Below are positions 11,920-51,686 of a stretch of DNA of 51,686 nucleotides, piece by piece. The translations under genes and the position numbers were made by a program. Where the stretch lies: contig AKKQ01000008.1 of the NCBI GenBank assembly GCA_000276965.1, positions 1 to 51,686 on the forward strand, read 5' to 3'. Under the pieces are notes generated by a model that was not told the origin of the DNA, ran no database searches, and saw nothing but the letters and a program-made list of their open reading frames with translations. The stretch's first letter is position 1, and the number at the start of each line of letters is the position of its first letter. This DNA is from Thiovulum sp. ES (GTDB taxonomy: Bacteria > Campylobacterota > Campylobacteria > Campylobacterales > Thiovulaceae).

Positions 11920-12819
11920 ATGAAAATTGTATTTATGGGAACACCAGAATATGCGGACGAAATTTTAAAAGAGATTTTAAATGAAGAGAGTTTAGATGTT
12001 GTTGGGGTTTTTACTCAACCAGATCGACCAGTTGGACGAAAGCAAATTATGACTCCTCCGCCAGTCAAAACAACAGCTGAGAAATTTGAAATCCCAGTTT
12101 TTCAACCCGAAAAGTTACGAGAAATTGCCGATGAGGTTCGGAATTTAAATCCAGATTTTCTTGTTGTCGGGGCTTACGGACAAATTTTAAGTCGAGAAAT
12201 TTTGGATATTGCACCCGCGATAAATTTGCACACCTCAATTCTCCCGCTTTACCGTGGTGCAAGTCCAATTCAACAAGCTCTTTTAAATGGTGATTTGGAA
12301 ACTGGTGTAACGGCAATGCTGATGAACGAGGAACTTGACGAAGGTGATATTCTCAAAATCTCAAAAATTGACATCGATAAAACTTGGCTACTCGAAGATT
12401 TGTATCAGAATTTGACAAAACTTGCAGGAAAATTAGCAGTTGAAACTGTGAAAGATTTCCAAAATCTGCGACCTCATCGGCAAAAAACTGAAGATGCAAC
12501 TTATTGTAAAAAAATCAAGAAAAGTGATGGTGAAGTCTCTTTTAAATCGGCGACAGAAATTCATCGAAAATGGAGAGCATTTACTCCGTGGCCTTCAATT
12601 TATTTAGAAAATGGTTTAAAACTTCTCGATATTGGAATTTCTGAAAATGGGAATTTTCGTGAAGGGGAAATTTTAGAAGTTTCTGAAAATGAAATTCGTG
12701 TCGGCTGTCTCGATGGTTCTATAACAATTCGTGAAGTCCAGCCAAAATCTAAAAAAAGAATGGGTATCATCTCATATCTAAATGGAAAAAGATTAAAACA
12801 AGGTGATATTCTATGGTAA
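11920..12819 (+). CDS. fmt: Methionyl-tRNA formyltransferase
   Basis: A 299-residue enzyme with both domains. The N-terminal formyltransferase fold begins MKIVFMGTPEYAD. The catalytic Asn and His lie in INLHTSILPLYRGASPIQ, and the catalytic Asp in ELDEGDIL. The smaller C-terminal beta domain includes WRAFTPWPSIYLENG. It formylates initiator Met-tRNA using 10-formyl-THF. It starts behind AAGAAAGGA and overlaps the next gene by seven bases. Two GATGAGGT motifs lie in it, one read as Asp-Glu-Val and one as Arg-Pro-His-Arg. Confidence 0.97.
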   Translation: MKIVFMGTPEYADEILKEILNEESLDVVGVFTQPDRPVGRKQIMTPPPVKTTAEKFEIPVFQPEKLREIADEVRNLNPDFLVVGAYGQILSREILDIAPAINLHTSILPLYRGASPIQQALLNGDLETGVTAMLMNEELDEGDILKISKIDIDKTWLLEDLYQNLTKLAGKLAVETVKDFQNLRPHRQKTEDATYCKKIKKSDGEVSFKSATEIHRKWRAFTPWPSIYLENGLKLLDIGISENGNFREGEILEVSENEIRVGCLDGSITIREVQPKSKKRMGIISYLNGKRLKQGDILW

Positions 12820-13064
12820 ATTTTAGAGTTGACTCGGACAACAAAAATATCAAAATCGAATTGATGCTAAAAGGCGAAAGCGACACTCTTTTTGTTGAAA
12901 TTCCAAAATACCAAATTGTTGAAGTTGATGAAAAAGTCTATATTGACATTTATGAAATAAAAACAAATCGAGAGTGGCTAAATATTGTGATTGAGACTTA
13001 CCTGAAAAACAAGCGAGTCGAAGTTCCGCAAAAATTTGCCCCACTACTTGAAATTGCTCTTTAG
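12813..13064 (+). CDS. Small conserved protein, paralogue of the 38916 gene
   Basis: An 83-residue soluble protein without signal or membrane segment, overlapping fmt by seven bases and followed eight bases later by truD. It aligns along nearly its whole length with the C-terminal two thirds of the product of 38916-39281. Shared elements are LKGE, the central Y-x-I-x-x-x-D, a Y-E-x-x-x-N-R-x-W block, and P-Q-K near the end. No function is known to me. Both paralogues sit next to genes for translation (fmt-truD, argS). Confidence 0.75.
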   Translation: MVNFRVDSDNKNIKIELMLKGESDTLFVEIPKYQIVEVDEKVYIDIYEIKTNREWLNIVIETYLKNKRVEVPQKFAPLLEIAL

Positions 13065-27552: not shown

Positions 27553-28281
27553 TTAAAATATAATTTTGTAAATTATATCTTGAAAAAGGAAAGTTATTAA
27601 AAGTGCTGTTGCTAAAAAAGGAATGTAAGGTAACTCTCGCTCTTTGGCAATTATTATTGCGGGAATTGTTAAAATTGATGATAGAAAAATTGCAAAAGCT
27701 CCTAAATATGTTCCAAGAACCGCACCAATTACACCCGCAATCATAATATCACCCTCTCCCATCGCCTCTCTTTTTACAAAATAGGAGACATAAAATCTCA
27801 AAAATGCAAAAGCTCCACCAAAAAGTAATGCATCTTCCAAGTTGTTAAATATCTCTGTTAATTGCATTGGATAAATTATCGAGAGAGTCAAAGCTGTTAA
27901 ATTCAAACTGTCAGGAACTGCTTTGTGATACAAGTCAATAACCGAAAGAGCTAAAATAATTGAAAATAGCAATGCCAATAAAAATGCCTCTAAATTAAAT
28001 CCAAATTCTAAATATATAACAAGAAAAATTACAGCTGAAATTGTTTCAACAATTGGATACTGAATTGATATTTTTGAGTTACAAAAAGAGCATTTTCCTT
28101 TTAAAAAAAGATAGGAAAGAATTGGAATGTTGTGCCAAAACTTTAACTTTACTTTACACTTTGGACAATGAGAACTTGGAAAAACGATTGATTCTCCGAG
28201 CGGAATACGATAAATCAGAACATTTAAAAACGAACCAATTGAGAGACCTAAGATAATTACAAAAATAGTTTCTAAATTCAC
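27553..28281 (-). CDS. pilD: Prepilin peptidase (leader peptidase, PilD/GspO type)
   Basis: 242 residues, polytopic. The N-terminal cytoplasmic loop has two Cys pairs (SSHCPKCKVKLKFWHN and GKCSFCNSKI), the zinc-like site of PilD. The GxGD aspartyl protease motif is GEGDIMIAGVIG, and the first catalytic Asp lies in DLYHKAVPDSLN. It cleaves and N-methylates prepilins and pseudopilins such as the one at 24033. It overlaps the lipoprotein gene before it by four bases, so it is co-translated with the exported-protein operon. Confidence 0.93.
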   Translation of the reverse strand: MNLETIFVIILGLSIGSFLNVLIYRIPLGESIVFPSSHCPKCKVKLKFWHNIPILSYLFLKGKCSFCNSKISIQYPIVETISAVIFLVIYLEFGFNLEAFLLALLFSIILALSVIDLYHKAVPDSLNLTALTLSIIYPMQLTEIFNNLEDALLFGGAFAFLRFYVSYFVKREAMGEGDIMIAGVIGAVLGTYLGAFAIFLSSILTIPAIIIAKERELPYIPFLATALLITFLFQDIIYKIIF

Positions 28282-28688
28282 TCTGCACTCCTATAAACTG
28301 TTGCACTTCCTCCAACAAGATAGACAGATGTATAATCTCGGTCGGTTCGTTTTATGATTTTTACAATTGCATTGCTTGTTTCAATCACTTTATCTCCTGT
28401 ATAGACTCTATATTCACGACCTCTTGTCATTTTCTCTTTCGTCTCTGTTATCATATTTTCTGTTTGTTCATCTTCATCATCAGGAATAACAACAATTGCT
28501 CCCTCATTTTCATCTTCTTCAATCTCATCAGTATCTTCTTCTGGTAATTGCTGGTCGATGAGGTCATCTGTTTCATTCTCTTCGTTACTAATATTGTCCT
28601 CAACTGCTACTTGAGATTTCTCTTGTTTCTCTTCTTCTCCGCTACAAGAAAATAGAAAAATTGATAGCAAAAAAATAGTATATTTCAT
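28278..28688 (-). CDS. Acidic lipoprotein
   Basis: About 136 residues from MKYTIFLLSIFLFSCS; the lipobox Cys is near residue 15 and AAAGGAC precedes this ATG, which I prefer to one 15 codons upstream. The middle is strongly acidic (Glu/Asp-rich, residues 20-80). The last 45 residues are ordered, with YRVYTGDKVIETSNAIVKII and a beta pattern. I do not recognise it. Its end overlaps the prepilin peptidase start. Confidence 0.75.
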   Translation of the reverse strand: MKYTIFLLSIFLFSCSGEEEKQEKSQVAVEDNISNEENETDDLIDQQLPEEDTDEIEEDENEGAIVVIPDDEDEQTENMITETKEKMTRGREYRVYTGDKVIETSNAIVKIIKRTDRDYTSVYLVGGSATVYRSAE

Positions 28689-28698
28689 AAAAAGTCCT

Positions 28699-31600
28699 TT
28701 AAAACTCAATTGTTCCATTAAGTGGAAGTTCAACTGATATTTCTAAATTATCTCCAAAGTTAGTCTCAACATCTATTGAAATTCTGTCTCCGCTATTGAT
28801 TCTTAAATTTGGTATTTTAAAATCACTTGAATTTGTTTCAATTGTTAGGGAACTTGTTTTGTAATCAATATCAACCCCATATCGTCCAGAAGCAATTCCA
28901 AAAAATATTCTATTTCTCTCAATTGCAACCTCTTTTGTAATCTCTTCATTTGAAACAAACTCGTATAAATCTGTTATCAAAGAAACGTCTAAGTCTCTTG
29001 TTACTTCCAAATCAACAGTATCATTTGTCATTGTGAAATTTGAGTTGTAGAGAATAATGGAGTTTCCGTAAAAAGTTGAAGTTAAATCTAGTCTATCTGT
29101 GCTTAAAAAAGTGTTTCCAGCTATCCATTCGCTTTCAAAAAATTGGAAACCTAAATTTTCACCAGTTAAATGAAAACCATTTATTAGAAGAGTTATATTT
29201 TCATCAGTTGAACTTCTTGAGACAAAATCAACTTCACCAACTGAAACTTCTATATCACCAGCCGTCTTAATTGTTGTCTTTGTTCCCTCAAGTGTATAGC
29301 TTCGACTACCATCAGCAGAATTTGACAATATCACATCTTCATTCGACCCATTAAAATCAACTGTAATTGTCTCAAATTGAATTCCTGTTGAACTCTCAAC
29401 TTCTATAATTTCACCCCAACTCTCTTCATAAACAACTAAATTTCCTAAATCTCGTGGAGGAGAATCCTCTTCAATCTCTTCAGTTTCATTTATATCTTCA
29501 ACTTCAGGCTCTTCTTCAGGTTCTATAATTTCAGGCTCTTCTTCTTCAGGTTCTATAATTTCAGGCTCTTCTTCAGGTTCTATAAACTTCTCAAATTTCT
29601 GGGAAACAATTGGACTTTTATTTCCAGCTTTATCTTGAGTTTGTGCATAAATTGTTGTTGTTTCTCCAATTGTTATCGGATTTAAATATCTTGATGAGGG
29701 GTTTGCATAGTTTTTAGAATACAAAATAGTGATAGGAGTCTCTTCCGCTTCTATCGCAATATCTGTTGTGCCAGAAAAATTATTCTCCCCTGAAATAGTT
29801 GGTTCAAAAGGATCAGTATTGTCAATTGAAAACTCTTTGTAGTAAGTCGTGCTGTTCTTCTCTCCATTTGAAACAATAACAGTTAAATAGTGTGTCTCTT
29901 CATCTAATTTTGAAATATCTATTTGATAAGGTTCTGCATAACTTGTTTGAAAAGAGTTATTTCCAAATTTCCAGTAAAAATATGGAGTCGCACCACCATC
30001 ATCAATTGTTAAAGTAATTTTTGGTTCTTTTTCAGAATTTATATATTCTCCATTGTAAATTGAAAAAAGAGCTGACGGAGAAGTTATCAGTTTTTCATAT
30101 CGCACATCAAATTCAAAAATAGAACTCTCATTTCCGATCCAATCATATCCAACAACTTTTATCTTTTTTATTGCTGTTGAGAGTGAAATTGATGTTCCAC
30201 TTTCCAAAACAGAACTCTCTTTTGTAGGTTTATCTCCATTTGTTGTGTAGTAAAAAGAGATGTAATCAGGTGTTGCCTCTTCAAAAACATCAAAATATAC
30301 ATTTAAAAGACTTTCAGGACAGACCCAAATATCTTCAACTATTTGACAGCTATTAGGCATTTCTACATCTGTAATTTGTGGTGAGACCGTATCGATAATT
30401 ATCTCTCTTGTTTCAACTGGAGTACTGTTTCCGACCTCATCAGCACCAATAAAATTTAATGTAGCACTCTGCTCAATTATCAAATTTCCACTTTGCGATC
30501 TTGTTGTTGGTGTTGTTCCATCAAGTGTCCAATATGCAGAACCCTCAGAAACTGTAAATTTCAAACTCTGCTCGTTTGCAAAAATAAATTTACCATCTAA
30601 AAAGTTTGGATGTGAATTGTTTAATTCGACAGAATCCGCAAAAACATCTATTGACTCTGGAGAATCTCTGTCAATTGTAATTCTAAAGTTTTTTAAATCT
30701 CCTAAATTTCCAAGAGTATCAATTGCGACAGCTTTTATAACAGAAGAGTCTGAAATATTTATTTGTTTTGTGTATGTTGTTCCAGAAATTTTTGATGGAT
30801 TTGTCCCATCAATTGTATATTTTATAAATCCATTTTCGTTACTGTTTAAACTTAAAACTACACTTCTAGAAAAACTACTATCTTCTAAAACCTCATTTCC
30901 ATTAATTGAAATTGTTAAGTCTGGTTTTGAATTATCTACAAAAAATATCAACTCCGATGAGGTCGCCTGAATATTGCCAAAAGAATCTCGTCCAAAAACT
31001 TTTAAACTATGTTCCCCATCTTTTAAATTTCCGACATAAATTTTCTCAGAGGAGTTTTGCCATTCAGAAAACTCTTCATCATCAATTTGATATTTAAAAC
31101 TATCTAAGTCGTTTGCAAAAATTGATACATATGGAATAGGGTTTGTTGCACCGTTCACCCCGTTTGTTGAAATTTCACTACCATTAAGAATTGAAAATTC
31201 TGCAATATTTCCTCGATACGAAACTGAAATATCTCGACTTTTTACCTCTTCTCTATTTTCAGCTTTATCAATTCCTAGAAATTTTATTTCTGTATCTGTA
31301 AAAACTCTAATTGGTTCTCTGTATTCTTCTGAATCTAATGTTGGTTCGCTACTGTCAAGAGTATAATAAATTTCACTTTTCTCTCTTGAATTCAAAATTA
31401 TCTCAACTGAACCGTCATCGTTTTTTATTTCTGAGATGTAAGTTGATGGCGGGGTTCTATCTATTACTATTTTTCCAAAAATTGTCTCTGGTGAAATTTC
31501 CAAATTTGTGCTTTCAGCAATAAGATGAAAATAGTAATCTCCATCTTCAAAATCATTCAGTGGTATTGAAAGTGAATTGTAAGATGAATTTAATCTTTTT

Positions 31601-31812
31601 CCACCTTCTGAAAGTGAATTTAGGTTTGAATTATTTAAAGTATATCGATACTGGTAAATATCACTGTTGCTTGGTTTATTCCAATTGACAATTAAAGTAT
31701 CACTACTTGATGAAACATTTATTTTATGAGTTGTTGAAAAAACCTCTATCTGTTCGATTTCTCCAAACAGTGATAGAGTTAAAAAAAATATTATTGAGAG
31801 GTGGCGAAACAT
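28699..31812 (-). CDS. Large exported Ig-like protein with CHB_HEX_C-like repeats
   Basis: 1037 residues with a type I signal peptide (LSIIFFLTLSLFGEI). At least five segments resemble the chitobiase C-terminal-like (CHB_HEX_C) module: YTLDSSEPTLDSEEYREPI, YTIDGTNPSKISGTTYTKQI, WTLDGTTPTTRSQSGNLI, YTTNGDKPTKESS and SKNYANPSSRYLNPI. A Pro-Glu linker (EPEEEPEIIEPEEEE) near residue 750 separates them from a C-terminal beta domain of about 250 residues. It is probably surface-exposed or periplasmic and adhesive or structural. It is one base after the 31813 gene, and its own stop is ten bases before the acidic lipoprotein. Confidence 0.8.
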   Translation of the reverse strand: MFRHLSIIFFLTLSLFGEIEQIEVFSTTHKINVSSSSDTLIVNWNKPSNSDIYQYRYTLNNSNLNSLSEGGKRLNSSYNSLSIPLNDFEDGDYYFHLIAESTNLEISPETIFGKIVIDRTPPSTYISEIKNDDGSVEIILNSREKSEIYYTLDSSEPTLDSEEYREPIRVFTDTEIKFLGIDKAENREEVKSRDISVSYRGNIAEFSILNGSEISTNGVNGATNPIPYVSIFANDLDSFKYQIDDEEFSEWQNSSEKIYVGNLKDGEHSLKVFGRDSFGNIQATSSELIFFVDNSKPDLTISINGNEVLEDSSFSRSVVLSLNSNENGFIKYTIDGTNPSKISGTTYTKQINISDSSVIKAVAIDTLGNLGDLKNFRITIDRDSPESIDVFADSVELNNSHPNFLDGKFIFANEQSLKFTVSEGSAYWTLDGTTPTTRSQSGNLIIEQSATLNFIGADEVGNSTPVETREIIIDTVSPQITDVEMPNSCQIVEDIWVCPESLLNVYFDVFEEATPDYISFYYTTNGDKPTKESSVLESGTSISLSTAIKKIKVVGYDWIGNESSIFEFDVRYEKLITSPSALFSIYNGEYINSEKEPKITLTIDDGGATPYFYWKFGNNSFQTSYAEPYQIDISKLDEETHYLTVIVSNGEKNSTTYYKEFSIDNTDPFEPTISGENNFSGTTDIAIEAEETPITILYSKNYANPSSRYLNPITIGETTTIYAQTQDKAGNKSPIVSQKFEKFIEPEEEPEIIEPEEEEPEIIEPEEEPEVEDINETEEIEEDSPPRDLGNLVVYEESWGEIIEVESSTGIQFETITVDFNGSNEDVILSNSADGSRSYTLEGTKTTIKTAGDIEVSVGEVDFVSRSSTDENITLLINGFHLTGENLGFQFFESEWIAGNTFLSTDRLDLTSTFYGNSIILYNSNFTMTNDTVDLEVTRDLDVSLITDLYEFVSNEEITKEVAIERNRIFFGIASGRYGVDIDYKTSSLTIETNSSDFKIPNLRINSGDRISIDVETNFGDNLEISVELPLNGTIEF

Positions 31813-32355
31813 CTAATTTCCCTTTTCCTTGAAAGTTTGTTTTATAGCATCGTCAAAAAACTCTAAAAGAAAACCTTTTATTCCACCCTCCTTTTTCATT
31901 TGTAAAAACTCTTTGTTTCTTAGAAATTTTGAAAGAGTCCCTATATAATCTTCGATTTCCTGTAAAGATTTTCCTTTTTTTATATCTTTAAGTTTGTCAT
32001 TTAAAACATCCTCAATTTCTGAAATAGCATTGTTCTCATCTTTGAATTCAATCTCTTCTAAAAAATCAATAATATCAAGAGATTTCTCATTTTTTAATAA
32101 GTATGCGATTTTTATTGATCCACGACGAGTCCAAAATAGAGTTTTTGTTTTTTTGTTTTCTGGAAATTGGAGTAATTCCAAAAAAAGAAAATCTACATTT
32201 TCTCTAACTCTCGTATCATTTTTAAGGTTTTCAACCTCTTTTTCTCCAGCTTCAAAAATAACTGAAATGGAAGAGTTGCTTACAATCCATTTATACTTAC
32301 TATTTTTTTGAATGCAAACAACTCGATTTTGAAAAACAAAAAGTTCTGTGTTCAA
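31813..32355 (-). CDS. Conserved soluble protein, unknown
   Basis: 180 residues, TTG start, no signal peptide among exported neighbours. The N-terminal half has beta strands and KTLFWTRRGSIKIAYLL, distantly reminiscent of the TRRG segment in BRO/ORF6N-type domains. The C-terminal half is helical and charged. I do not recognise a family with confidence. It is tightly packed (three bases after the large lipoprotein gene, none before the Ig-like gene), so it could be a cytoplasmic regulator or chaperone of the exported proteins. Confidence 0.55.
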   Translation of the reverse strand: MNTELFVFQNRVVCIQKNSKYKWIVSNSSISVIFEAGEKEVENLKNDTRVRENVDFLFLELLQFPENKKTKTLFWTRRGSIKIAYLLKNEKSLDIIDFLEEIEFKDENNAISEIEDVLNDKLKDIKKGKSLQEIEDYIGTLSKFLRNKEFLQMKKEGGIKGFLLEFFDDAIKQTFKEKGN

Positions 32356-32358
32356 AAT

Positions 32359-35229
32359 CTATTCAATTACTGCCCAAGTTGGAACAACATATTCTATATA
32401 CCCAAATGGAATTGCCCCAGCTTTTGGGAATGTGTTGATGTAACAAATACCTTCGCCTTCATCAATTACATAATATGTTGCACCTGCATATTCTTGAGCA
32501 TAATCAATTCTCATTTGAGGAACTTTATATGTGTTATCAAGATACTTATAAGGTGATTCATCAATGGTAAATTTTTGTCTATAAATCATTGTTAATGTCG
32601 TTGTTGCATTCTGGTTTTTAAGTATCAAGCTATTTGTAGGATCACTATAACCAACTGCAAGAGTTGTTGGTGCTCTTAATGTTAAATATGTTGGATCCGC
32701 AAGAAGAGCATTACAAATAACCATGGATTCATCTTCTTTCTCTTCATCTGTCCAATCATCATAAGCAATAGTTGTTAAATCTCTACTTGATGTTGCTTTA
32801 CAAACACCATCTTTAAGAATTTGACCATCTGGACATGTAACAGGAGCAACATCAGTTCCATTTATCTCTTGGCAAATTCCACCTTGTAGTTCGTAACCAT
32901 CTTCACAACTAGCAGTTGTATCCCCATCAGTGTCAGGAGTTGGTGGGGCATTGTCATCTCCCGCATTATTTGTTTCACCAGAATTATCTTCTTCAACTGA
33001 AGTATTATCATCTTCTGTTTCCGTGGTGTTTGTCTCATCATTATCAGTTGTATCACCCGTTTCCGTAGAATTATTTACATCTTCATTATCAGTTGTATCA
33101 CCGGTTTCCGTGGAATTATTTACATCTTCATTATCAGTTGTATCACCGGTTTCCGTAGAATTATTTACATCTTCATTATCAGTTGTATTATCTGTATTTT
33201 CATCAGTTGTATCACCCGTTTCCGTAGAATTATTTATGTCTTCATTATCGGTTGTATCATCTGTATTTTCATCGTTTGTATCGCCTAAACCACTCTCATA
33301 TTCGTCTTCAGAAAGCCCCTCTTTTTCAAGATAATCATCCAAACTACCAGCAGGTACAATTGTTACAGGAATAGATACATCATCACTATTTATTCCATCC
33401 GTGATTGTTATATGAAGAGTGGTTTGAGTTCCAGCTCTACCAGTTGCTTTAACTGTAAATCTTGTAAATTCTTCATCATTCCAACCCGCAAATATTGCAA
33501 CAGCTTTGTTATCAACATAAACTTCAGGCTCTCCAATCTCTTCTGAATTTGAAGTTCCAAATTGAAGACCACTTCTAGTTCCACCCTCTTCAATAAAGAG
33601 TCTATTAAAACCTAAATGAAGTTCAGGTTTTATGTAAGTTGCATCTCCATCATCAGGTACGATTTCAACTTGAAAACTTTCACGATCATATAAATTAACA
33701 GCATCGTTTGCATGTTCTGATTGGATTGTAATTGTTGCAATGTCTCCAACTTCTCCAAGTGCTTCTAATCTAAGAGGAATAAAATATTTATTTGAATAGG
33801 TAACATCAAATTTATCAGTTCCATTAATTCTCGCATCAACTTTTGTAGGTTCATCATAAACAAAAGTATAGATTTCTGCATCTGTTTCATCTAATACATA
33901 AAAAGAGATGTTTAGAACTTGATTCTGCTTAATTCTAATAATGCCAGATGGTTTAAAAATTGTAATAATTGGTCTGTCTGTTGCAGTGGAAATAATATTA
34001 TTTAAATCCTGATTTACAAGTTGTTGTTGTTCATCAGTCAATTTATCATAATCGTTTCCAGTTAAACGAGTTGAACTCGAGGTAGTGTCTTCACCATCTA
34101 TTAGATTATCATCATATTCAGCTTCACCAACTCCAACAATTTTAACAATAAACTTTGCATAATCATACTCGCCTTTTCCATCAACTGCAACAAGAAAAAG
34201 TTCTATTTCTTCACCTTTTTGACCAAGTGCATCAAGAATAAAAGAAGACGGAACACCGCTATCGTTTGAAATAATTGGATTTACTACTCCATTTGTCTCA
34301 TTGAACTCAGTCAAGTCAAGAACTTTTCCACCTTCATCAAAAATCCGTCGCCAATCACTTCGGACAACAACCGTAACATTACTATCAATTGTATAAGAAA
34401 TTCCAAAATAGACTCGCCGTCTATCTCCCTCTTCAATATAAATTGTGTCGTATGTAAAATAGACACCAACAGGACTATAAGTTGTGTCATTTTGATCTAC
34501 GATTTTTGCAAGAAGTTCGCTACGATCAAAGTTTGTTGTGTCCTCTTCTTGTGCTTCAACAGTTATTTTTGCAGTTTGATTAATTTCGCCATAAGCGGTT
34601 AGTTCAAGAAAAGCAATTGAGTTAGAATCAATAATTCTAAAAGGTCCTGCATCTAAAAACAAGGGTCTAATAACATTTCTATTTGAGCTATCAGCATTTA
34701 CAAGAAGATTTTCTAAATTATCATCAAAAATATAGTAAGGGAGAACAACAGTTGTGTCTTTTTGAATATTAATTTCATTTTTTGTTGTCTCATTAACAGG
34801 AGTTAAAACAGGACTTTTATCTTCATCATAAATCTTATTTTTATCTTTTTGAACAATCAATTGCTGATCTGTTGATAGTTCATCAAACCAGCTAGAGACA
34901 ATATCTCTAAGTTTTTCAGTCTCTTCTTCAGTAGGTGTTTCATTATCTACTGTGTCGTTTGTGATAGTGTCTTCTTCATTTGTGTTTTCATCAACAACCT
35001 CATCAGTTGTAGTTGTATTAGTTTCTTCAACTGGACAATCAGTCTCTCTGAAGTTGTTTTCACACATAAAATCCCTATAAGGGTAGTAGAAAGTTTCGTT
35101 TAAAAACTCGTCAATCGCATTATCTTCAGGAATCTCAACTCCAGCAGTTTCTCCAACTTTGGAACAACTGCTAAAAAACAGTGCCAATGAAATAAAAAGA
35201 GTTGATACAAAATGCCTAGAGATTCCCAA
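32359..35229 (-). CDS. Large Thr/Asp/Asn-rich lipoprotein
   Basis: 956 residues. The signal peptide ends in LALFFSSC. A low-complexity Thr/Asp/Glu linker follows, then two copies of a beta-rich region with related blocks: KNKIYDEDKSPVLTPV versus NNIISTATDRPIITIF, and FDRSELLAKIVDQND versus YDRESFQVEIVPDDGD. A 15-residue tandem repeat (TTDNEDVNNSTETGD) and two Cys motifs (CEDGYELQGGIC, CPDGQILKDGVC) come next, then a C-terminal domain. The Cys motifs recall the CEEQGLV units of the lipoprotein at the left edge. It is probably outer-surface; the function is unknown. Confidence 0.8.
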   Translation of the reverse strand: MGISRHFVSTLFISLALFFSSCSKVGETAGVEIPEDNAIDEFLNETFYYPYRDFMCENNFRETDCPVEETNTTTTDEVVDENTNEEDTITNDTVDNETPTEEETEKLRDIVSSWFDELSTDQQLIVQKDKNKIYDEDKSPVLTPVNETTKNEINIQKDTTVVLPYYIFDDNLENLLVNADSSNRNVIRPLFLDAGPFRIIDSNSIAFLELTAYGEINQTAKITVEAQEEDTTNFDRSELLAKIVDQNDTTYSPVGVYFTYDTIYIEEGDRRRVYFGISYTIDSNVTVVVRSDWRRIFDEGGKVLDLTEFNETNGVVNPIISNDSGVPSSFILDALGQKGEEIELFLVAVDGKGEYDYAKFIVKIVGVGEAEYDDNLIDGEDTTSSSTRLTGNDYDKLTDEQQQLVNQDLNNIISTATDRPIITIFKPSGIIRIKQNQVLNISFYVLDETDAEIYTFVYDEPTKVDARINGTDKFDVTYSNKYFIPLRLEALGEVGDIATITIQSEHANDAVNLYDRESFQVEIVPDDGDATYIKPELHLGFNRLFIEEGGTRSGLQFGTSNSEEIGEPEVYVDNKAVAIFAGWNDEEFTRFTVKATGRAGTQTTLHITITDGINSDDVSIPVTIVPAGSLDDYLEKEGLSEDEYESGLGDTNDENTDDTTDNEDINNSTETGDTTDENTDNTTDNEDVNNSTETGDTTDNEDVNNSTETGDTTDNEDVNNSTETGDTTDNDETNTTETEDDNTSVEEDNSGETNNAGDDNAPPTPDTDGDTTASCEDGYELQGGICQEINGTDVAPVTCPDGQILKDGVCKATSSRDLTTIAYDDWTDEEKEDESMVICNALLADPTYLTLRAPTTLAVGYSDPTNSLILKNQNATTTLTMIYRQKFTIDESPYKYLDNTYKVPQMRIDYAQEYAGATYYVIDEGEGICYINTFPKAGAIPFGYIEYVVPTWAVIE
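33039..33250 (-). repeat. 45-bp in-frame tandem repeats
   Basis: Three consecutive 45-bp units at 33039, 33084 and 33129, a spacer, and a further diverged copy to about 33250. Each unit encodes TTDNEDVNNSTETGD with one or two silent changes. The region is an unstructured Thr/Asn/Asp linker in the lipoprotein and is a likely site of length variation. Confidence 0.9.
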
Positions 35230-35248
35230 TGATAATCCTTTAAAATGT

Positions 35249-35395
35249 TTATTGTCTGTAACCAGAATCGACGGAAACAGGTTGTTGTGCTTGGTTATTG
35301 ATAATCACTGGACTACCCCAACCAACATGAAAATAACACCCACTAAAGAGTGTCGAGAGAGCGAGTAATATAGAAATTCCGAGAAATTTTTTCAT
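35249..35395 (-). CDS. Tiny lipoprotein, 48 residues
   Basis: ATG 35395 overlaps the LPP20 gene stop (TAATG). The signal peptide MKKFLGISILLALSTLFSGC has a clear lipobox Cys at residue 20. The 28-residue mature part contains YFHVGWGSPVIINNQAQQP. It is too short for a domain and may be a partner or regulator of the LPP20 protein, or a small outer-membrane lipoprotein in its own right. Confidence 0.7.
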   Translation of the reverse strand: MKKFLGISILLALSTLFSGCYFHVGWGSPVIINNQAQQPVSVDSGYRQ

Positions 35396-35922
35396 TATCG
35401 ACCTCGTCGTGTATTATAACTGTAGTTATACCCCGAAAGAATTCTTTGCCATTTTTTAGCATCGAGTTTTAATTCCATAGTAACTTCATAAAGACCATTG
35501 TTATAAGTTTCATCAACAATTTCAGCATTCTTGATAACAGCTTCAAGAGAAGTTTTTACAACTGAACTTTTAGAAGCCATATCTCGAATTGTGTCTTTCG
35601 CAGTAATTCTAATTCCATACATTTTCTCACCAAGTTGTCGGTAAGCATCAACAGTAGCAGCTCGTTTTGCAAGTGCAAGAGCTTGAGCAGAAGAATTGAC
35701 ATTAACTGGAGCAACACCTAGACCTTTAGCCGAAATAGTCATAATCTTTCGACCTCTTAAAATAGGTGAGTTTGGAATAATGTCTTCGTTAAGATAATCA
35801 CGAGACAGAGGGTCTTTGACTTTGTAGTCTCTCTTCTTGTCTGTATCCTTCTTGGTTGCACAACCAGTTGAGAATAGAACTAAAGCCATAAGAACCGATG
35901 AAATAATAGAAACATTTCTCAT
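35395..35922 (-). CDS. LPP20-family lipoprotein
   Basis: 175 residues. The signal peptide ends LVLFSTGC (Cys near residue 21). The LPP20 core appears as GLGVAPVNVNSSAQALALAK, then RAATVDAYRQLGEKMYGIRI, then a C-terminal strand set (GLYEVTMELKLDAKKW). Members are outer-membrane or surface lipoproteins in Helicobacter and relatives; related FlgP proteins act with the flagellar basal disk. It is 66 bases after the SapC gene, the largest gap in this operon. Confidence 0.85.
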   Translation of the reverse strand: MRNVSIISSVLMALVLFSTGCATKKDTDKKRDYKVKDPLSRDYLNEDIIPNSPILRGRKIMTISAKGLGVAPVNVNSSAQALALAKRAATVDAYRQLGEKMYGIRITAKDTIRDMASKSSVVKTSLEAVIKNAEIVDETYNNGLYEVTMELKLDAKKWQRILSGYNYSYNTRRGR

Positions 35923-35988
35923 TTCTACTCCTTAAAAAATAGTTGGTGTGTTCGGCTGAACAGCGATATATAATTCCATATCGGAATT

Positions 35989-36696
35989 TTAATCTAACTT
36001 ATTAACAAGCTCGTCAAAATTTGAGAGAGAATTTAAGTGATTATTAATAAGGTTCATTCCACCAATTTTAGTTAAGTTTAAAACTTCAGTATCAGAAAGC
36101 TTATTTAATTTTTCAGGATCAACTTGATAAATTCCAGTAATTCTATGTTGTGCCTTATCTTTTTTACCAAAAGAGATGTCGATTGGAGTTAAAAGTTGAA
36201 GTCTTTCAAGCTCTTTTGTAATGTTCTTTAAAACAGAAATATCGTTATAAAGCTCTTCAGCACCATTTTTAATTTTTTCACCATAAACAGAAAGAGTTTG
36301 ATCGTCTTTGAAAAAAGTTTCACCTTTTTTAGCATTGACAAGTTTAGACTCAGTATCATAAGCAATTGAAATCGTTTTAGCATCAGCAGAAGCTTTTGAA
36401 AAAGCAAACGGATAGAGTCGAATCATTGATGGAATATATCGAGTTAGCCATTTTCCGTTTTTATCAATAAAAAGATTCTTATCTTTATCTGCACCAAGAA
36501 TTGCAATCGCAGAAAAACCATCACTCTCTTTGATAAACATAATTGGGTAGTATTTACTTGCTTCAGCAGTTTCTCGAAAAGAGACAGCAATTGCTCCAAC
36601 TTCACTTGCAAAATTATAGTTTTCAATTGCTGAGAATTTTGTTTCTAAATCTCTTTTGTCTAAAAGCTTAGGTTTTTTAATCATTTTTTGAATCAT
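35989..36696 (-). CDS. sapC: SapC-family protein
   Basis: 235 residues without a signal peptide. YYPIMFIKESDGFSAIAILG, NLFIDKNGKWLTRYIPSMI and RLYPFAFSK are the conserved core of the SapC family, named from the Campylobacter fetus S-layer (sap) locus. Its biochemical role is not known. Here it sits inside a run of exported proteins, immediately after a signal-peptide-bearing gene, which supports a part in surface-protein export or display (inference). A start at Met5 is also possible. Confidence 0.85.
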   Translation of the reverse strand: MIQKMIKKPKLLDKRDLETKFSAIENYNFASEVGAIAVSFRETAEASKYYPIMFIKESDGFSAIAILGADKDKNLFIDKNGKWLTRYIPSMIRLYPFAFSKASADAKTISIAYDTESKLVNAKKGETFFKDDQTLSVYGEKIKNGAEELYNDISVLKNITKELERLQLLTPIDISFGKKDKAQHRITGIYQVDPEKLNKLSDTEVLNLTKIGGMNLINNHLNSLSNFDELVNKLD

Positions 36697-37197
36697 CTAT
36701 TTTGCTTCCTCTGTTTTTTCAACATTGTTTTTTATTGTTGAAATATGTTCGTCTTTTTTTGTAGTTTCTGTAACAGTTTCAACTTTAACTTCTTTAGGTT
36801 CAAACTCAATAACATCAGAATCTAAAAATAGAGTCAGGGTTTCATTTGTATAAATTGTTTTTGCTTCTTTTCCAATTGTAAAATCAATTCTGTAAAGTCT
36901 GTGAAAACCTTCAGCAACTGAAATATTCACCAATTTTGCTTCTTTTCCAAATTTCTTAATTAGAGTTTGGGCAGTTTTTGAGTGAAATGGTAAATACATA
37001 TCATTTTTACAAGTATCAAATTCAATTTGCATTGGAGGCGGAAGATGAACAAGCATCATTGGAATAGTTTTACAACTTTTAGGAGTTCCTCTAGTTTCTG
37101 TTGTTGGAAAACTTGGAGGCATTGGAGGCATCATAGATTGCCCAGCAAAAAGTGAAGTCGCAGATAGCGACACAATTAAAGTAGCTAATTTTTTCAT
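36697..37197 (-). CDS. Exported Met/Pro-rich protein
   Basis: 166 residues. A type I signal peptide (LIVSLSATSLFAGQ) is followed at once by MMPPMPPSFP and later PMMLVHLPPPMQ. A beta-rich region (YRIDFTIGKEAKTIYTNETL) and a charged helical tail follow. I do not recognise a family. It directly abuts the SapC gene. Confidence 0.7.
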   Translation of the reverse strand: MKKLATLIVSLSATSLFAGQSMMPPMPPSFPTTETRGTPKSCKTIPMMLVHLPPPMQIEFDTCKNDMYLPFHSKTAQTLIKKFGKEAKLVNISVAEGFHRLYRIDFTIGKEAKTIYTNETLTLFLDSDVIEFEPKEVKVETVTETTKKDEHISTIKNNVEKTEEAK

Positions 37198-37211
37198 AAT
37201 TTTCCTTTCTT

Positions 37212-37799
37212 TTATCGTGGTTTTTCTAACATCATCATTGGTGGCATTGGTGGAAATTCTCCTATTGCCGATGAGGTAGATTTTCCATCAGATTCATAAA
37301 CAGTTGATGGATCAACATCGTCATAAATTGAGAGATTAGCAGGTTTTGGTGGAGTTGGATAATTTTTTCTATTATCTTCCATATGCTGTTTCACTTGTTC
37401 GTTTAAAGCATCCCAACTATCTGGAATTACATCAACTCTTTTTTGCTCAACAGGTTCATCATCACTAACCTCATCGCTATTTGAAACAACTTCTGAATCT
37501 TTAGAGTCAAAACCATCCTCTCTCTCTTCATGAACTTTTTCAGATCGACTCTTTTCACGAAGTTTTTCATAAAGATCATTCATCTCTGAAACAGCTCTGT
37601 CGCTGATTTCTTCAGAATACTCTTCTTTCTCAATTCGTTCTTCTTTCTCTTCAGCAGTCTCATTTTCAGGAACTTTTGTGTTTAAATTGAAACTACTTCG
37701 AGAACCAGAACCATCAGGAATTGAATCCTCGCTACAACCACTACAACCGCCAAAGACAGCTGAAATAATAGCAAGGAGTGTCAAATTTTTAAAATTCAA
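37212..37799 (-). CDS. Acidic lipoprotein with Pro/Met-rich tail
   Basis: 195 residues. The signal ends ISAVFGGC (Cys near residue 19), with two more Cys nearby. A long charged helical region (residues 40-130) follows. The C-terminus is GEFPPMPPMMMLEKPR, matching the Pro/Met stretch at the N-terminus of the next protein. The function is unknown. It is two bases after a tiny lipoprotein gene. Confidence 0.7.
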   Translation of the reverse strand: MNFKNLTLLAIISAVFGGCSGCSEDSIPDGSGSRSSFNLNTKVPENETAEEKEERIEKEEYSEEISDRAVSEMNDLYEKLREKSRSEKVHEEREDGFDSKDSEVVSNSDEVSDDEPVEQKRVDVIPDSWDALNEQVKQHMEDNRKNYPTPPKPANLSIYDDVDPSTVYESDGKSTSSAIGEFPPMPPMMMLEKPR

Positions 37800-37801
37800 A
37801 T

Positions 37802-37975
37802 TTAATCTCCGTAAGGAATTTGCGGTGGTAGAGAATCTGACAAGTTGTTATCTTCATCTTTTACTTCTGGAACAGTCTCATTGGACTCGTTTGTATCAGC
37901 GGTAAAATCACTAACATCACCTTCTCCACAACCAAAAAATATCGACAAAATAGAAATTATTAAAATACTTCTCAT
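37802..37975 (-). CDS. Tiny lipoprotein, 57 residues
   Basis: ATG 37975 to TAA 37802. The signal peptide MRSILIISILSIFFGC gives a lipobox Cys at residue 16. The mature part is acidic and ends DSLPPQIPYGD, another short Pro-rich tail like its neighbours. It lies eight bases after the 37984 gene and two bases before the next. Confidence 0.7.
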   Translation of the reverse strand: MRSILIISILSIFFGCGEGDVSDFTADTNESNETVPEVKDEDNNLSDSLPPQIPYGD

Positions 37976-37983
37976 TTAAAAAC

Positions 37984-38466
37984 CTATTTACAACTTGGAT
38001 CAGGAAGAGGTGGCGGTAAAAGACCCATATTATCAGCTTGTAAGCATTCATCTTCAACTGGTTCGTTTGTATTTAAAGTTGTATTCACTTCTTTAATTAA
38101 AACAACTAATTCGTCTAAACCATTTTGAAACTCTTCAAGCTCAATATTATCAATTTCTTCTAAAGCCGTTATCTTTTCCTCTTCTGTCAAGTTTTCATTT
38201 GTTGCAATACTCTCTTTGACCTCATCAAGAGCATCTACACCAGCTTCAATTAGCTCTTTAACACCGTCTTCGTCAAGTTCTTCACCAGTTGTCAATTTTC
38301 CTGTAATATCTTCAATCTTTTCAACTGTTTCTTCATCTAAACCACTAGCAATATCTTCAATTATATCTTGTCGAGGTTGATCATCAGAAGCTTCTAGTGG
38401 CTCATCATAATCAGAACAAGAAATTACAAACAAAGAGAGAGTTAAGAGTAAAAAAACTCGAGACAT
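37984..38466 (-). CDS. Acidic helical lipoprotein
   Basis: 160 residues. The signal ends SLFVISC (Cys near residue 17). The body is a strongly acidic helical region, and the C-terminus is MGLLPPPLPDPSCK, with a final Cys. I do not recognise it. It is one base after the 38468 gene. Confidence 0.7.
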   Translation of the reverse strand: MSRVFLLLTLSLFVISCSDYDEPLEASDDQPRQDIIEDIASGLDEETVEKIEDITGKLTTGEELDEDGVKELIEAGVDALDEVKESIATNENLTEEEKITALEEIDNIELEEFQNGLDELVVLIKEVNTTLNTNEPVEDECLQADNMGLLPPPLPDPSCK

Positions 38467-38467
38467 C

Positions 38468-38905
38468 TTACTTATATTTCACTTTAATTTTAAGGTGTAA
38501 ATCGCCTTTTTTTCCAAAATCAATATTTGTATTTGGATCAGCAACTTCATCTCTTAATTTAACAACATTGAAACCATTCACTTTTTTGGCACTAAAGCTT
38601 AAATCAAGTTCCTCAAAATTATCTTTTCCACCTTTGATAAGTGCGATAATGTCAGAAAATTTGATCTCTTCAACTTTATTTAATTCATTCTCATTAATTG
38701 CTCGGTCAAGTAATTTAATTGTACTATCCATAATTCCCCTACTCATATTGTATGACATTCCAATTGGTGAATAATCGAAAGCTTTTTTCATAAACTTTTT
38801 AAGTTTTTTGTTTCGCTCAGACTCTTCGACTTCATTGCCTTCGTTATCAGTAATAACTGTTTTGCCTGTGTCTAAATCAATATCTGCTTTTAAATCTTCA
38901 GCCAT
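38468..38905 (-). CDS. Soluble protein of unknown function at head of exported-protein operon
   Basis: 145 residues, no signal peptide. The N-terminus is acidic, followed by a basic helix (NKKLKKFMKKAFDYSPIGM). The C-terminal third has beta strands with ELDLSFSAKKVNGFNVV and LHLKIKVKYK, which loosely resemble the strand pattern of the 38916 product. No family recognised. It lies ten bases after 38916. Confidence 0.6.
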   Translation of the reverse strand: MAEDLKADIDLDTGKTVITDNEGNEVEESERNKKLKKFMKKAFDYSPIGMSYNMSRGIMDSTIKLLDRAINENELNKVEEIKFSDIIALIKGGKDNFEELDLSFSAKKVNGFNVVKLRDEVADPNTNIDFGKKGDLHLKIKVKYK

Positions 38906-38915
38906 GTTTCCTCAC

Positions 38916-39281
38916 TTACATTAAAATTTTAATAGGGACTACGAGTTTTTGCGGAATTGGAAATTTTTTCTCGTAAATAAAAGTGTTTAAGAGAGCATCA
39001 ATCCAATATCGATTTGCCGAAACTTCGTAAAACTCTATAAAATAATCATCGTCAATTTTGGAAATTTTGTAATTTCCAATATCAATTATAACATCTCCTT
39101 TTTCACCTTTAAGATAAACGGATAAATGTATTTTTTTCTCTTTGGAATTAATATCAAGTTCTTTGATTTCGCCAAACTTTTTCATAAAACCATTTGCGAT
39201 ATTTTTAATAACTGCGGACTGAGTCGAGTCTTTACCATTTTGTAAAGTGTCGCTCATTTTAGAAAATGCACTACTAAACAT
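38916..39281 (-). CDS. Paralogue of the 12813 protein with extra N-terminal helix
   Basis: 121 residues. The first 40 are helical (MFSSAFSKMSDTLQNGKDST). The rest aligns with the 83-residue protein encoded at 12813-13064: LKGEKGDVIIDIGNYKISKI, YEVSANRYW and FPIPQK match LKGE, YEIKTNREW and VPQK there. The function is unknown. It starts three bases after argS. Confidence 0.75.
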   Translation of the reverse strand: MFSSAFSKMSDTLQNGKDSTQSAVIKNIANGFMKKFGEIKELDINSKEKKIHLSVYLKGEKGDVIIDIGNYKISKIDDDYFIEFYEVSANRYWIDALLNTFIYEKKFPIPQKLVVPIKILM

Positions 39282-49244: not shown

Positions 49245-51686
49245 CTATTTTATAATTTCTTCTAAATAGAATTTTCCGCCAAGAATGTAAAGACCCCAAT
49301 CTGTTTTCTCTTCTTCTCCAGTTGAAAAAATCACACTTCTTTGATAATCGTATCCATTGTAATATGCACTTTTTCCACCATCAATTGAATTATAAATATT
49401 TATATAACTCTCATTTGTATCAACAGAATAGAAATTTAAAGTGTTTTGATAGTGATAACTTGGAAAATAAATATCTGTTAAAGCCATTGGATAGTAATAA
49501 TATCCATAGTCTAAATAGTGATTTTCTACATAAAATTCGATTCCTTGAGAAATCTCAAATGCATATTTCTCTTTCCACTCTTCAACTTCTGAAATATTCA
49601 AGTCGTTAATATTTGTATAGTTTTGAGCTAAATATTCTATTTTTTGTTCGTCCGTCATCTCTTCTTCAATATGTTCTTGAAGTGAAACAGCAAATAAATT
49701 ATCAGAATTTCTGTAAGTGAAAGCTTTGTGATTATGAACTGCTTCAGAATAATATTTCCATCGATATTCATCTTGAGTTTCTGGCAAAAGCACTTTATCA
49801 ACTAGAGTCGGATTATTAAAATCAGAAACATTGAAAAGCTGAATTTGGTAGCCTGTTTCAGTTCCGTCAGAATCGGCATTTACTCCAAGTGAAAGAATCA
49901 AATCAGAATTGACAGGGTGGAAATAAGTTGAATATCCGTCAATTTCAAGTGGATTTTCACCAAGAACTGGCTTTTCAGGATTTGAGAAATCTACAACATA
50001 AAGAGGATCAGTTTGACGGAAAGTAACAATATAACCTTTATCGCCTAAAAATCGGACTCCCCGAATTGTTTCGCCCTCTTTTCCAAGTCCGCTAATTTCA
50101 CCGACAATTTCCAAAGTTCCGTTTTTTTCGACGATTGACGAAACAATATTATCAGTATCGCCACCACTCCACCAACTTCTAACTTTTGTAGTTGCAACTC
50201 GGAGAACCTCATCGTATTCTGAAAGTGAAAATTGATTTAAAATTCGACCATCAAGGAAAGTTTTTCCGTTGTAAGAGAGTTCGTTAGAAATTCCAAATTT
50301 ATAAATTGCAATTCGTTCGTCGTAATTTCTCCAATTCCAATATCGAGGATAATCGCTTGAAACGATATAAATTGCTTCCGTTGAGGCATACAGAGTCTCA
50401 CTACCACCAACGGCTGAAATTGTTTCCATTTTTGAAAAGTCTTCAATCTGGAAAGAAGTAATTGAAGTGATAAATGGAGATTGGTCAATCTTTTTTGGTG
50501 CAAAAAGTGTTTCATTGCTGTAAAGAGGTTTGTCATTTATTTTTGCGATGAGGTCAGCTGAAACTTCCGTGTATTTGTCATAATTGATTTCGTAATAAGT
50601 TCCATTGTCATCTTGCAAATAATAGTAATAACACTCTTCTTTTTCTTCACATTCAACGACTTCTTTTTCATATTCAATTTCAATTGATGGCATAAATCGA
50701 GAAACAACAAAGAGTTTTCCACCCGTTACTCGAGTATCAACAATATTTCCGCTAATGTTGAAATCTTCAGTTTTGACAATATTTTCAATATCGGAAACAT
50801 CATAAACTTCGACTCGGCTCGTTTCACTCCAAATCGAATAATCAACATAGCACCAACTATTCCAATAATAATTGTTTGTCGGATAAATTGCAATCAATTT
50901 GTCATTTACTAAATAGAGTTCATCTGGTTTTTGTTCCGTCTCAATTTCTGTAATTGCTTCATTGTTTCCGCTCAAAATCTCTGAAAAAGTCGTAACAAGA
51001 ATTTTATTTTCATATCTGCCGTTTGGTAAATAGAAAATTTTATTTCCGTCATGTTTTACAATATCAGCTTCATCAACTAACTCTTCTTGAGTATTTGTTG
51101 TTGTTATGTCTGAAACTTTTTCAGAATTATCACCTGCAGAATCTGATGAATCAACTTCCATTTCTGAATAAACAAATCCTTCGTCATAATAATAATTATG
51201 TGGAGAGTTGTATCGGAAATTTCTATTGTATCTCACCATTGAAAGTAGGAAATTTTCCATTGACTCGTTTGACTCAAAATTTTGCAATTCAGAAGTTTCG
51301 TCCAAGTCGATAGTTTTTTCAGTTTCAGAAAGAACCCAAAAACCTTCACCAGTTCCAATAACTCCAATATCTGGATACGAACTTTCGCCAGAAAAACCGT
51401 GTTTATATTTTGACCATTGTCCGCCACTATATTTCCAAACTGCTTTTTCGTTTTTGAATACATCTTGTGAAATCGCCAAATTTAGAGGAAGTGAAAGAAG
51501 ATTCCAACCCCGTTCGAGTTCTAGTTTTGTAATATCAGAAACTTGATTTTCATCATATTTTTCTTGAATATACAAATCTTTGTTTGTGTAAATCCAAACT
51601 CCGTCCGTCGGATTTATGTCGCCACTGTTTTTAACCCAAGCTCCACTTTTCCACATATAAATATTTCCGAGTGATGGGTATTGCAA
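49245..51686 (-). CDS. Secreted beta-propeller protein, N-terminus beyond window
   Basis: At least 813 residues; the right edge cuts the N-terminus, so the start is not seen. The first 130 visible residues contain two copies of a small motif: SLGNIYMWKSGAWVKNSGD, and ERGWNLLSLPLN with VWKYSGGQWSKY. Then TQEELVDEADIVKHDGNKIF begins the large Beta_propel-type (PF09826-like) domain. It continues through VEVYDVSDIENIVKTEDFNI, KGYIVTFRQTDPLYVVDFSN and YYSEAVHNHKAFTYR to the end. Such proteins are exported; the role is unknown. Two GATGAGGT copies lie inside, one read Tyr-Asp-Glu-Val and one Ala-Asp-Leu-Ile. Confidence 0.85.
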   Translation of the reverse strand: MQYPSLGNIYMWKSGAWVKNSGDINPTDGVWIYTNKDLYIQEKYDENQVSDITKLELERGWNLLSLPLNLAISQDVFKNEKAVWKYSGGQWSKYKHGFSGESSYPDIGVIGTGEGFWVLSETEKTIDLDETSELQNFESNESMENFLLSMVRYNRNFRYNSPHNYYYDEGFVYSEMEVDSSDSAGDNSEKVSDITTTNTQEELVDEADIVKHDGNKIFYLPNGRYENKILVTTFSEILSGNNEAITEIETEQKPDELYLVNDKLIAIYPTNNYYWNSWCYVDYSIWSETSRVEVYDVSDIENIVKTEDFNISGNIVDTRVTGGKLFVVSRFMPSIEIEYEKEVVECEEKEECYYYYLQDDNGTYYEINYDKYTEVSADLIAKINDKPLYSNETLFAPKKIDQSPFITSITSFQIEDFSKMETISAVGGSETLYASTEAIYIVSSDYPRYWNWRNYDERIAIYKFGISNELSYNGKTFLDGRILNQFSLSEYDEVLRVATTKVRSWWSGGDTDNIVSSIVEKNGTLEIVGEISGLGKEGETIRGVRFLGDKGYIVTFRQTDPLYVVDFSNPEKPVLGENPLEIDGYSTYFHPVNSDLILSLGVNADSDGTETGYQIQLFNVSDFNNPTLVDKVLLPETQDEYRWKYYSEAVHNHKAFTYRNSDNLFAVSLQEHIEEEMTDEQKIEYLAQNYTNINDLNISEVEEWKEKYAFEISQGIEFYVENHYLDYGYYYYPMALTDIYFPSYHYQNTLNFYSVDTNESYINIYNSIDGGKSAYYNGYDYQRSVIFSTGEEEKTDWGLYILGGKFYLEEIIK

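Follow-up and report, generated by a model that had tools for sequence, protein, structure and literature searches.

This study concerns a lipoprotein operon of Thiovulum sp. ES that carries the genes sapC and flgP and lies on the minus strand of a 51,686-nucleotide stretch of DNA (contig AKKQ01000008.1, positions 1 to 51,686; hereafter the window). An earlier note, made from the sequence alone, had described here a tightly packed same-strand set of eleven genes, including six lipoproteins, SapC, and LPP20, that ran from 38466 down to 28278 and passed by overlap into a prepilin peptidase gene. The packing was confirmed, with gaps of 8, 2, 14, 0, 66, -1, 19, 3, 0, and 1 nucleotides (nt) in the direction from lipoprotein LP160 to lipoprotein LP139 (the last being 10 nt instead of 1 if LP139 starts at the ATG at 28688), and LP139 shares 4 nt with the prepilin peptidase gene (27553-28281). 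Lipoboxes were likewise present in all six predicted lipoproteins, namely, LP160, LP57, LP195, LP48, LP956, and LP139. The limits 28278 and 38466, by contrast, proved not to be biological, as the two genes upstream of LP160, encoding proteins of 145 amino acids (aa; gap of 1 nt) and 121 aa (gap of 10 nt), are conserved with the set in other Thiovulum. They are followed upstream by argS (gap of 3 nt), while a radical-SAM gene and then NIF3 continue almost without gaps downstream of the prepilin peptidase. Since the chain overruns the given limits at both ends, the unit could be defined by comparison with relatives and not from the window alone.

A ten-gene core conserved in Thiovulaceae

For this comparison, four other Thiovulaceae genomes were used: Candidatus Thiovulum imperiosus (G053; JAMJTW010000012.1, locus L032), which shares its genus with the genome of the window, Candidatus Thiovulum stygium (G039; CP091137.1, locus L033), a third genus (G079; loci L118 and L034), and a fifth Thiovulaceae genome (G066). 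The first two are the closest relatives of the genome of the window. Genes outside the window were called with a simple caller, whose starts may be off. Results revealed a core of ten genes in the order 121-aa gene, 145-aa gene, LP160, LP57, LP195, SP166, SapC, FlgP, LP48, and LP956, which is the same in T. imperiosus (L032:8642-15489) and T. stygium (L033:6732-13975). In the genome of the third genus (81% complete), the core is split across two contigs and the 145-aa gene was not found; several genomes are incomplete, and such single absences (also that of SapC in G084) may be gaps. Even the spacing is retained in three genomes, being 0, -1, and 0 nt between SP166 and SapC and 66, 70, and 73 nt between SapC and FlgP. 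The flanks differ from genome to genome, with argS upstream in the window and an rdgB-type or aroQ-type gene elsewhere, indicating that the core was inherited or moved as a unit, and the recurrence of the ten-gene order in other genera of Thiovulaceae places the clustering far from chance. In the 97%-complete genome G066, all five parts searched (SapC, SP166, the 145-aa protein, full-length LP956, and FlgP) were absent. Thus, the presence of the core in Thiovulaceae is all or none. Moreover, among the 399 genomes of the order searched, full-length LP956 was confined to the four Thiovulum genomes that carry the operon. The set therefore survived the check for conserved neighbors that the earlier note had asked for, with synteny in Thiovulaceae only, and the conserved order within this family bears out its description as a coherent envelope unit.

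The core starts with two proteins without signal peptides. The 121-aa protein (38916-39281, minus strand, as are all the genes from here down to the prepilin peptidase) has homologues of 53 to 54% identity at the same place in T. imperiosus and T. stygium and no Pfam match above the cutoff; an 83-aa gene elsewhere in the window (12813-13064, between fmt- and truD-like genes) is a paralogue of it (32% identity, E 1e-16). The 145-aa protein (38468-38905) occurs in Thiovulum only, at 61 to 73% identity, with strong matches limited to three of the 399 genomes (G000, G053, and G039) and no relative in the PDB. Three lipoproteins with proline-rich tails follow, of which LP160 (37984-38466) has tailed homologues in L032, L033, and L118. 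The small LP57 (37802-37975) keeps its place in the same three loci, although its relatives are 74 to 98 aa long and some of them lack the tail. In LP195 (37212-37799), the tail is preceded by an acidic low-complexity stalk. SP166 (36697-37197) is a small secreted protein with a signal peptide and a two-cysteine domain, and the start of sapC (35989-36696) abuts its stop. Next come flgP (35395-35922) and, with a 1-nt overlap with the flgP stop, the very small lipoprotein LP48 (35249-35395), in which the pattern HxGWG(S/T)PV...DSGY is conserved in T. imperiosus and T. stygium. The core ends in the large lipoprotein LP956 (32359-35229), which aligns with its relatives at 40 to 51% identity. Its conserved N- and C-terminal regions are accompanied by a variable acidic TDNED-type spacer and C-x-GY-x-L-x-x-G-x-C repeats, and the gene contains a 45-bp tandem repeat (33038-33188).

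FlgP, SapC, and the SP166 family

FlgP builds a concentric basal disk beneath the outer membrane (PMC12222027 and PMC11756786) and is distinguished from Lpp20 by a beta-hairpin insert (PMC12222027). The core gene labeled LPP20 in the earlier note does encode a putative lipoprotein, but its score for Pfam LPP20 (19.4 bits) lies below the cutoff, and it is more precisely a member of the FlgP family. A profile of this family matched chain 9hmf_C, the flagellar periplasmic scaffold of Campylobacter jejuni, at E 1.5e-38 and Vibrio FlgP (8z5n) at E 1.5e-6, while the single sequence matched 9hmf_C at E 3.5e-32 over the folded SHS2-like domain, residues 57-162 aligning to 64-169. As both aligned stretches comprise 106 residues, the beta-hairpin that sets FlgP apart from Lpp20 is most likely present in the window protein, and Helicobacter pylori Lpp20 was not among the FlgP matches up to E 10. 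Judged by these PDB matches, the gene is flgP, which in Campylobacter codes for the lipoprotein of the basal disk in the flagellar motor, and this assignment replaces that of a generic Helicobacter-type lipoprotein. Compared with the disk proteins of Campylobacter and Vibrio (9HMF and 8Z5N; PMC12222027), the alignment spans the whole folded domain of C. jejuni FlgP. The window protein also has a putative lipoprotein-type signal; in all four operon genomes, STGC closes the hydrophobic segment, with an atypical residue at -3. The setting differs, however, in that the Thiovulum gene comes after sapC among lipoprotein genes, where no flgQ was recognized. In addition, the flgP neighbor in Helicobacter is fapH, encoding an ∼26-kDa lipoprotein, whereas the neighbor in Thiovulum, LP48, has 48 aa; LP48 was thus rejected as a FapH on the basis of size. 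FlgP relatives are frequent in the order, being present in 24 of the 39 genomes examined, and no copy besides that of the operon was found in any of the Thiovulum genomes that carry it. No FlgP was found in G066, whose motor should differ if the organism is motile.

The identification of SapC held without change, as PF07277 covers the full length of the protein (E 8.5e-54; 182.9 bits against a cutoff of 28.9). At E 1e-3, SapC was detected in 72 genomes, and 62 of these exceeded the family cutoff, while the SP166 family was found in ∼25 of the 399. SP166 has no relative in Pfam, PHROG, or the PDB by sequence and, on that basis, is classed here as an undescribed small exported family. A search for related loci with SapC alone yielded none; with an SP166 alignment, it yielded seven. 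The tie between the two families became evident in a SapC tree of 65 proteins (a quick-search tree on which co-occurrence labels were chosen after the SP166 search). All 12 members of one clade (Shimodaira-Hasegawa-like approximate likelihood ratio test [SH-aLRT] 93) came from SP166-bearing genomes, compared with 0 of the 53 other SapC proteins, and the label required one change versus 11.3 in shuffles, with 0 of 500 shuffles as low. This clade covers seven families (f1, f2, f5, f8, f19, f20, and f22), and the co-occurrence was significant both by genome (Fisher P = 3e-15, genomes not being independent) and by family (P = 0.001). Because SapC and SP166 lie on different contigs in several genomes (G001, G004, G007, G021, and G024), linkage alone is insufficient to explain this co-occurrence. 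Conversely, SP166 occurs without SapC in family f15 and three further genomes, indicating that SapC is not required by every SP166. The earlier note had tentatively proposed SapC as an export or display factor; as the protein lacks a signal peptide, it would more probably act in the cytosol than form part of the surface structure itself.

In structure prediction with AlphaFold2, SP166 reached a predicted local distance difference test score (pLDDT) of 85 to 92 in the core and 69 overall, and SapC reached a pLDDT of 85 with a predicted template modeling score of 0.79. The SP166 core weakly resembles the dimerization domain of DsbC and DsbG (8PXE and 3TDG; E 0.01, probability 1.0, TM score of 0.62 on the target), which could be convergent. 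Unlike these isomerases, SP166 consists of the small domain only, with no thioredoxin domain carrying CXXC and no sequence match. A BamE-like nature, considered from the alpha-alpha-beta order, was dropped after the fold search returned Dsb dimerization domains.

In other families, SP166 lies within type II pseudopilin gene runs, 2.2 to 3.4 kb from GspG, in four genomes of three families (G004, G024, G007, and G019), and it stands beside S8 subtilases (G007, G021, and G239), DUF6055 proteins (G084 and G023), or protein O-mannosyltransferases (G001, G019, G021, and G185). A very large exported protein is usually present as well. Thus, the surface or pilus-like link suggested by the earlier note retains some ground in the company of SP166 elsewhere, but not in the adjacent prepilin peptidase.

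The same full-length domain, PF07277, is found in the sapCDEF surface layer (S-layer) locus of Campylobacter fetus (PMC4943207). Unlike that locus, the SapC clade of the Thiovulum operon goes with SP166, and gene content in the window and beside SapC in L032 to L034 (no search with a SapDEF model was made) included neither a SapDEF type I exporter nor a SapA-like S-layer protein. S-layer export of the C. fetus type was thus rejected for the operon. A locus nearer to that setting is L049:9954-19998 (G043), where SapC adjoins a giant repeat protein (>3,100 aa, cut) with RTX-like GGAGED repeats. In another locus (L013:769-2184), a SapC domain (E 7e-61) is fused by an AT-hook-like linker behind an IS200-like (Y1) transposase domain (Y1_Tnp, E 9e-9), and similar long SapC frames of ∼455 to 485 aa occur in L015, L019, L022 to L025, and L029. 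The L013 fusion branches away from the operon clade in the SapC tree and was set aside as a clue to the operon.

The PPxPP motif and the remaining genes of the window

Four adjoining exported proteins of the core share a short proline motif. It stands 2 to 8 residues from the C-terminus in LP160 (LPPPLP, 38002-38019), LP57 (LPPQIP, 37814-37831), and LP195 (FPPMPP, 37239-37256) and at the N-terminus of the mature protein in SP166 (MPPMPP, 37114-37131), and it is absent from all other called genes of the 51.7-kb window. Across all loci examined, 13 of the 147 genes that lie within three of an SP166 gene carry the motif near the C-terminus, compared with 3 of the remaining 637 genes, of which two adjoin an SP166 overlooked by the gene caller. 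Outside Thiovulum, tails occur in families f2, f8, f15, f19, and f20. The LP195 tail reads DFPPMPP, DMPPVPP, or DFPPVPP among the relatives, and in T. stygium a transmembrane anchor replaces the lipid anchor of LP195 while the tail is retained. Moreover, the variants run in parallel: SP166 with PPMPP is accompanied by a neighbor with PPxPP, and SP166 with PPAMP is accompanied by a neighbor with PPAMP or PPSMP. For the DNA pattern coding for [LF]PPxPP in ten genomes, 15 matching loci were checked, and it was in frame only in two LP195 genes. Together, the tails and the anchor swap point to flexible anchored stalks, the free ends of which, along with the free end of SP166, may be read by one candidate partner. 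In family f15, which lacks SapC, a recurrent arrangement (L126 and L128 to L136) comprises lipoproteins of ∼660 and ∼300 aa, an exported protein of ∼1,250 aa, an SP166 relative, and an ∼100-aa lipoprotein; this last protein, beside the SP166 relative, has a PPTAP/PPAAP-type tail.

Short conserved C-terminal motifs on several unrelated neighboring exported proteins are also a feature of sorting tags such as GlyGly-CTERM/rhombosortase, which have a dedicated processing enzyme (PMC13393428). Unlike PEP-CTERM and GlyGly-CTERM, the Thiovulum motif is followed by neither a transmembrane helix nor a basic tail, and no rhomboid-type enzyme is encoded in the operon; the motif also occurs at the N-terminus of SP166.

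Downstream of LP956, the window continues with genes that comparison sets apart from the core. A 180-aa protein without a signal peptide (31813-32355) is common to T. imperiosus only (32% identity, L032). It is followed by a 1,037-aa exported protein (28699-31812) with five chitobiase/OmpL47-type repeats (PF13290, E 4e-43; NF047446, E 4.5e-12), which is absent from L032 to L034, and by LP139 (28278-28688), which is not conserved at the matching place in relatives. The prepilin peptidase (27553-28281; PF01478) belongs to Peptidase_A24, which has one gene per Thiovulaceae genome, and in all four other genomes (G053, G039, G079, and G066) this gene is on another contig or ∼0.8 Mb away. Being adjacent in 0 of 4, the peptidase was rejected as a functional partner. 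Hence, the conserved unit does not include argS, the 1,037-aa repeat protein, LP139, or the prepilin peptidase. Elsewhere in the window, short frames of 95 and 88 aa on the minus strand at 10604-11625 look by eye like the remains of an IS605 OrfB/TnpB-type gene, with no Pfam match above threshold, and the contig ends carry large envelope proteins, namely, a beta-propeller protein (PF09826, E 2e-101; 49245-51686) and a 1,229-aa PKD-domain lipoprotein (3-3689).

A putative envelope assembly beside the FlgP disk

Considering the gene content, the conserved order, and the tail motif, we infer that the ten-gene core encodes a Thiovulum outer-membrane or periplasmic assembly that is joined to the FlgP disk by PPxPP docking, with SapC as a cytosolic helper, and we give this reading a probability of about 0.42. 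At the base of the flagellum, FlgP would, by homology, be arranged in concentric rings beneath the outer membrane, and it would be combined with the anchored stalks LP160, LP57, and LP195, the soluble SP166, the large LP956, and the helper SapC. The PPxPP motifs at the free stalk ends and at the SP166 N-terminus would serve as docking peptides for one common partner, and docking would gather the stalks, SP166, and LP956 into a single structure beside the disk. Cytosolic SapC may act on the production or hand-over of SP166 or of its clients. The SapC-SP166 pair would be the older and more widespread part, serving type II secretion-like or surface-glycoprotein machinery in relatives, and in Thiovulum it would have become tied to the gene for the flagellar disk.

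Several observations weigh against this reading. FlgP is not linked to SapC outside Thiovulum, and no other flagellar gene (FlgQ or PflA to PflD) was recognized in the operon. In G004, G007, G024, and G239, SapC and SP166 are present while no FlgP was found, indicating that the pair does not require FlgP. The SP166 core resembles a Dsb isomerase dimerization domain weakly (E 0.01), several of the better fold matches being of that kind, and the SapC model has no fold match in the PDB or the viral library. Furthermore, 9 of the 13 tail-bearing neighbors are from Thiovulum and are thus not independent, the count being uncorrected for descent.

The main alternative, possible but less likely, is display of a large surface lipoprotein by a type II secretion system (T2SS). 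Here, SP166 would be an accessory of the pseudopilus or T2SS, PPxPP a sorting tag, FlgP a generic outer-membrane scaffold and not the flagellar disk, and LP956 the client, comparable to giant exported proteins (PKD- or Ser-rich) of relatives. The presence of SP166 in the GspG operons of three other families (P ∼ 2e-5 for 3 of 13), as well as its proximity to subtilases and O-mannosyltransferases, fits a role with the pseudopilus (GspG to GspJ) and lipoprotein export; T2SS genes are present in Thiovulum (GspF at C21 and C23 and GspG at C13), and in Acinetobacter, surface lipoproteins are known to be exported by a T2SS (PMC12802150). However, in Thiovulum these pseudopilin and GspF genes lie far from the operon and have no tail proteins beside them, and G066 retains GspG, GspF, and PilD without the operon. 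By Pfam, the core contains no ATPase, platform protein, secretin, or pilins. SP166 itself has an ordinary cleaved-type signal without the N-methylation motif, unlike a pseudopilin, and the FlgP match covers the whole ring-forming domain, which does not favor a generic scaffold. Mannosyltransferase is absent from Thiovulum, which speaks against T2SS display and led us to reject a glycoprotein function of that kind in this genus. The two readings are not cleanly separated, as the FlgP linkage favors the disk-associated assembly inside Thiovulum and the pseudopilin linkage favors T2SS display outside it.

A purely flagellar operon, in which all members are accessories of the motor or outer membrane (extra disks or rings like FapH or PflC/PflD) and SapC is an assembly factor, appears improbable. 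It would agree with the strict position of FlgP inside the operon in four genomes, with Helicobacter FlgP operons that carry the outer-membrane ring lipoprotein FapH (PMC11756786), and with the fast swimming of Thiovulum, but other families have SapC and SP166 in the absence of FlgP and next to T2SS genes, and SP166, the 145-aa protein, and LP956 have no sequence match to any solved motor chain; LP48, moreover, is far smaller than FapH. We regard as slightly more improbable still an ordinary cluster of unrelated envelope genes under shared regulation, with the tails reflecting polyproline stalling or being nonspecific. The position of the tails, 2 to 8 codons from the stop and near the next start, would suit stalling, which nevertheless has no need of the parallel motif changes in SP166 and its neighbor; in addition, the core changes flanks and disappears as one block, and the SapC-SP166 coupling persists where the genes are unlinked.

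Beyond the disk-associated assembly in Thiovulum, it is conceivable, albeit rather unlikely, that the operon represents a new envelope docking system, in which a dedicated partner reads PPxPP on the lipid- or transmembrane-anchored stalks and on SP166 and the SapC clade is the cytosolic member. Several Campylobacterota would employ this system alongside type II secretion-like machinery, and in Thiovulum, which counts among the fastest bacterial swimmers, it would be joined to the basal disk.

Thiovulum are giant veil-forming sulfur oxidizers that swim at up to ∼615 μm/s and bear short surface filaments, for which an identity as flagella or type IV pili is disputed (PMC9938260). SapC is a common Pfam family, and the coupling of one SapC clade to SP166 provides its first concrete partner. 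Moreover, an operon that joins a flagellar disk gene to large lipoproteins names proteins to seek on the filaments and under the outer membrane. The conserved Thiovulum operon is suggestive of an outer-membrane assembly that has not been described before.

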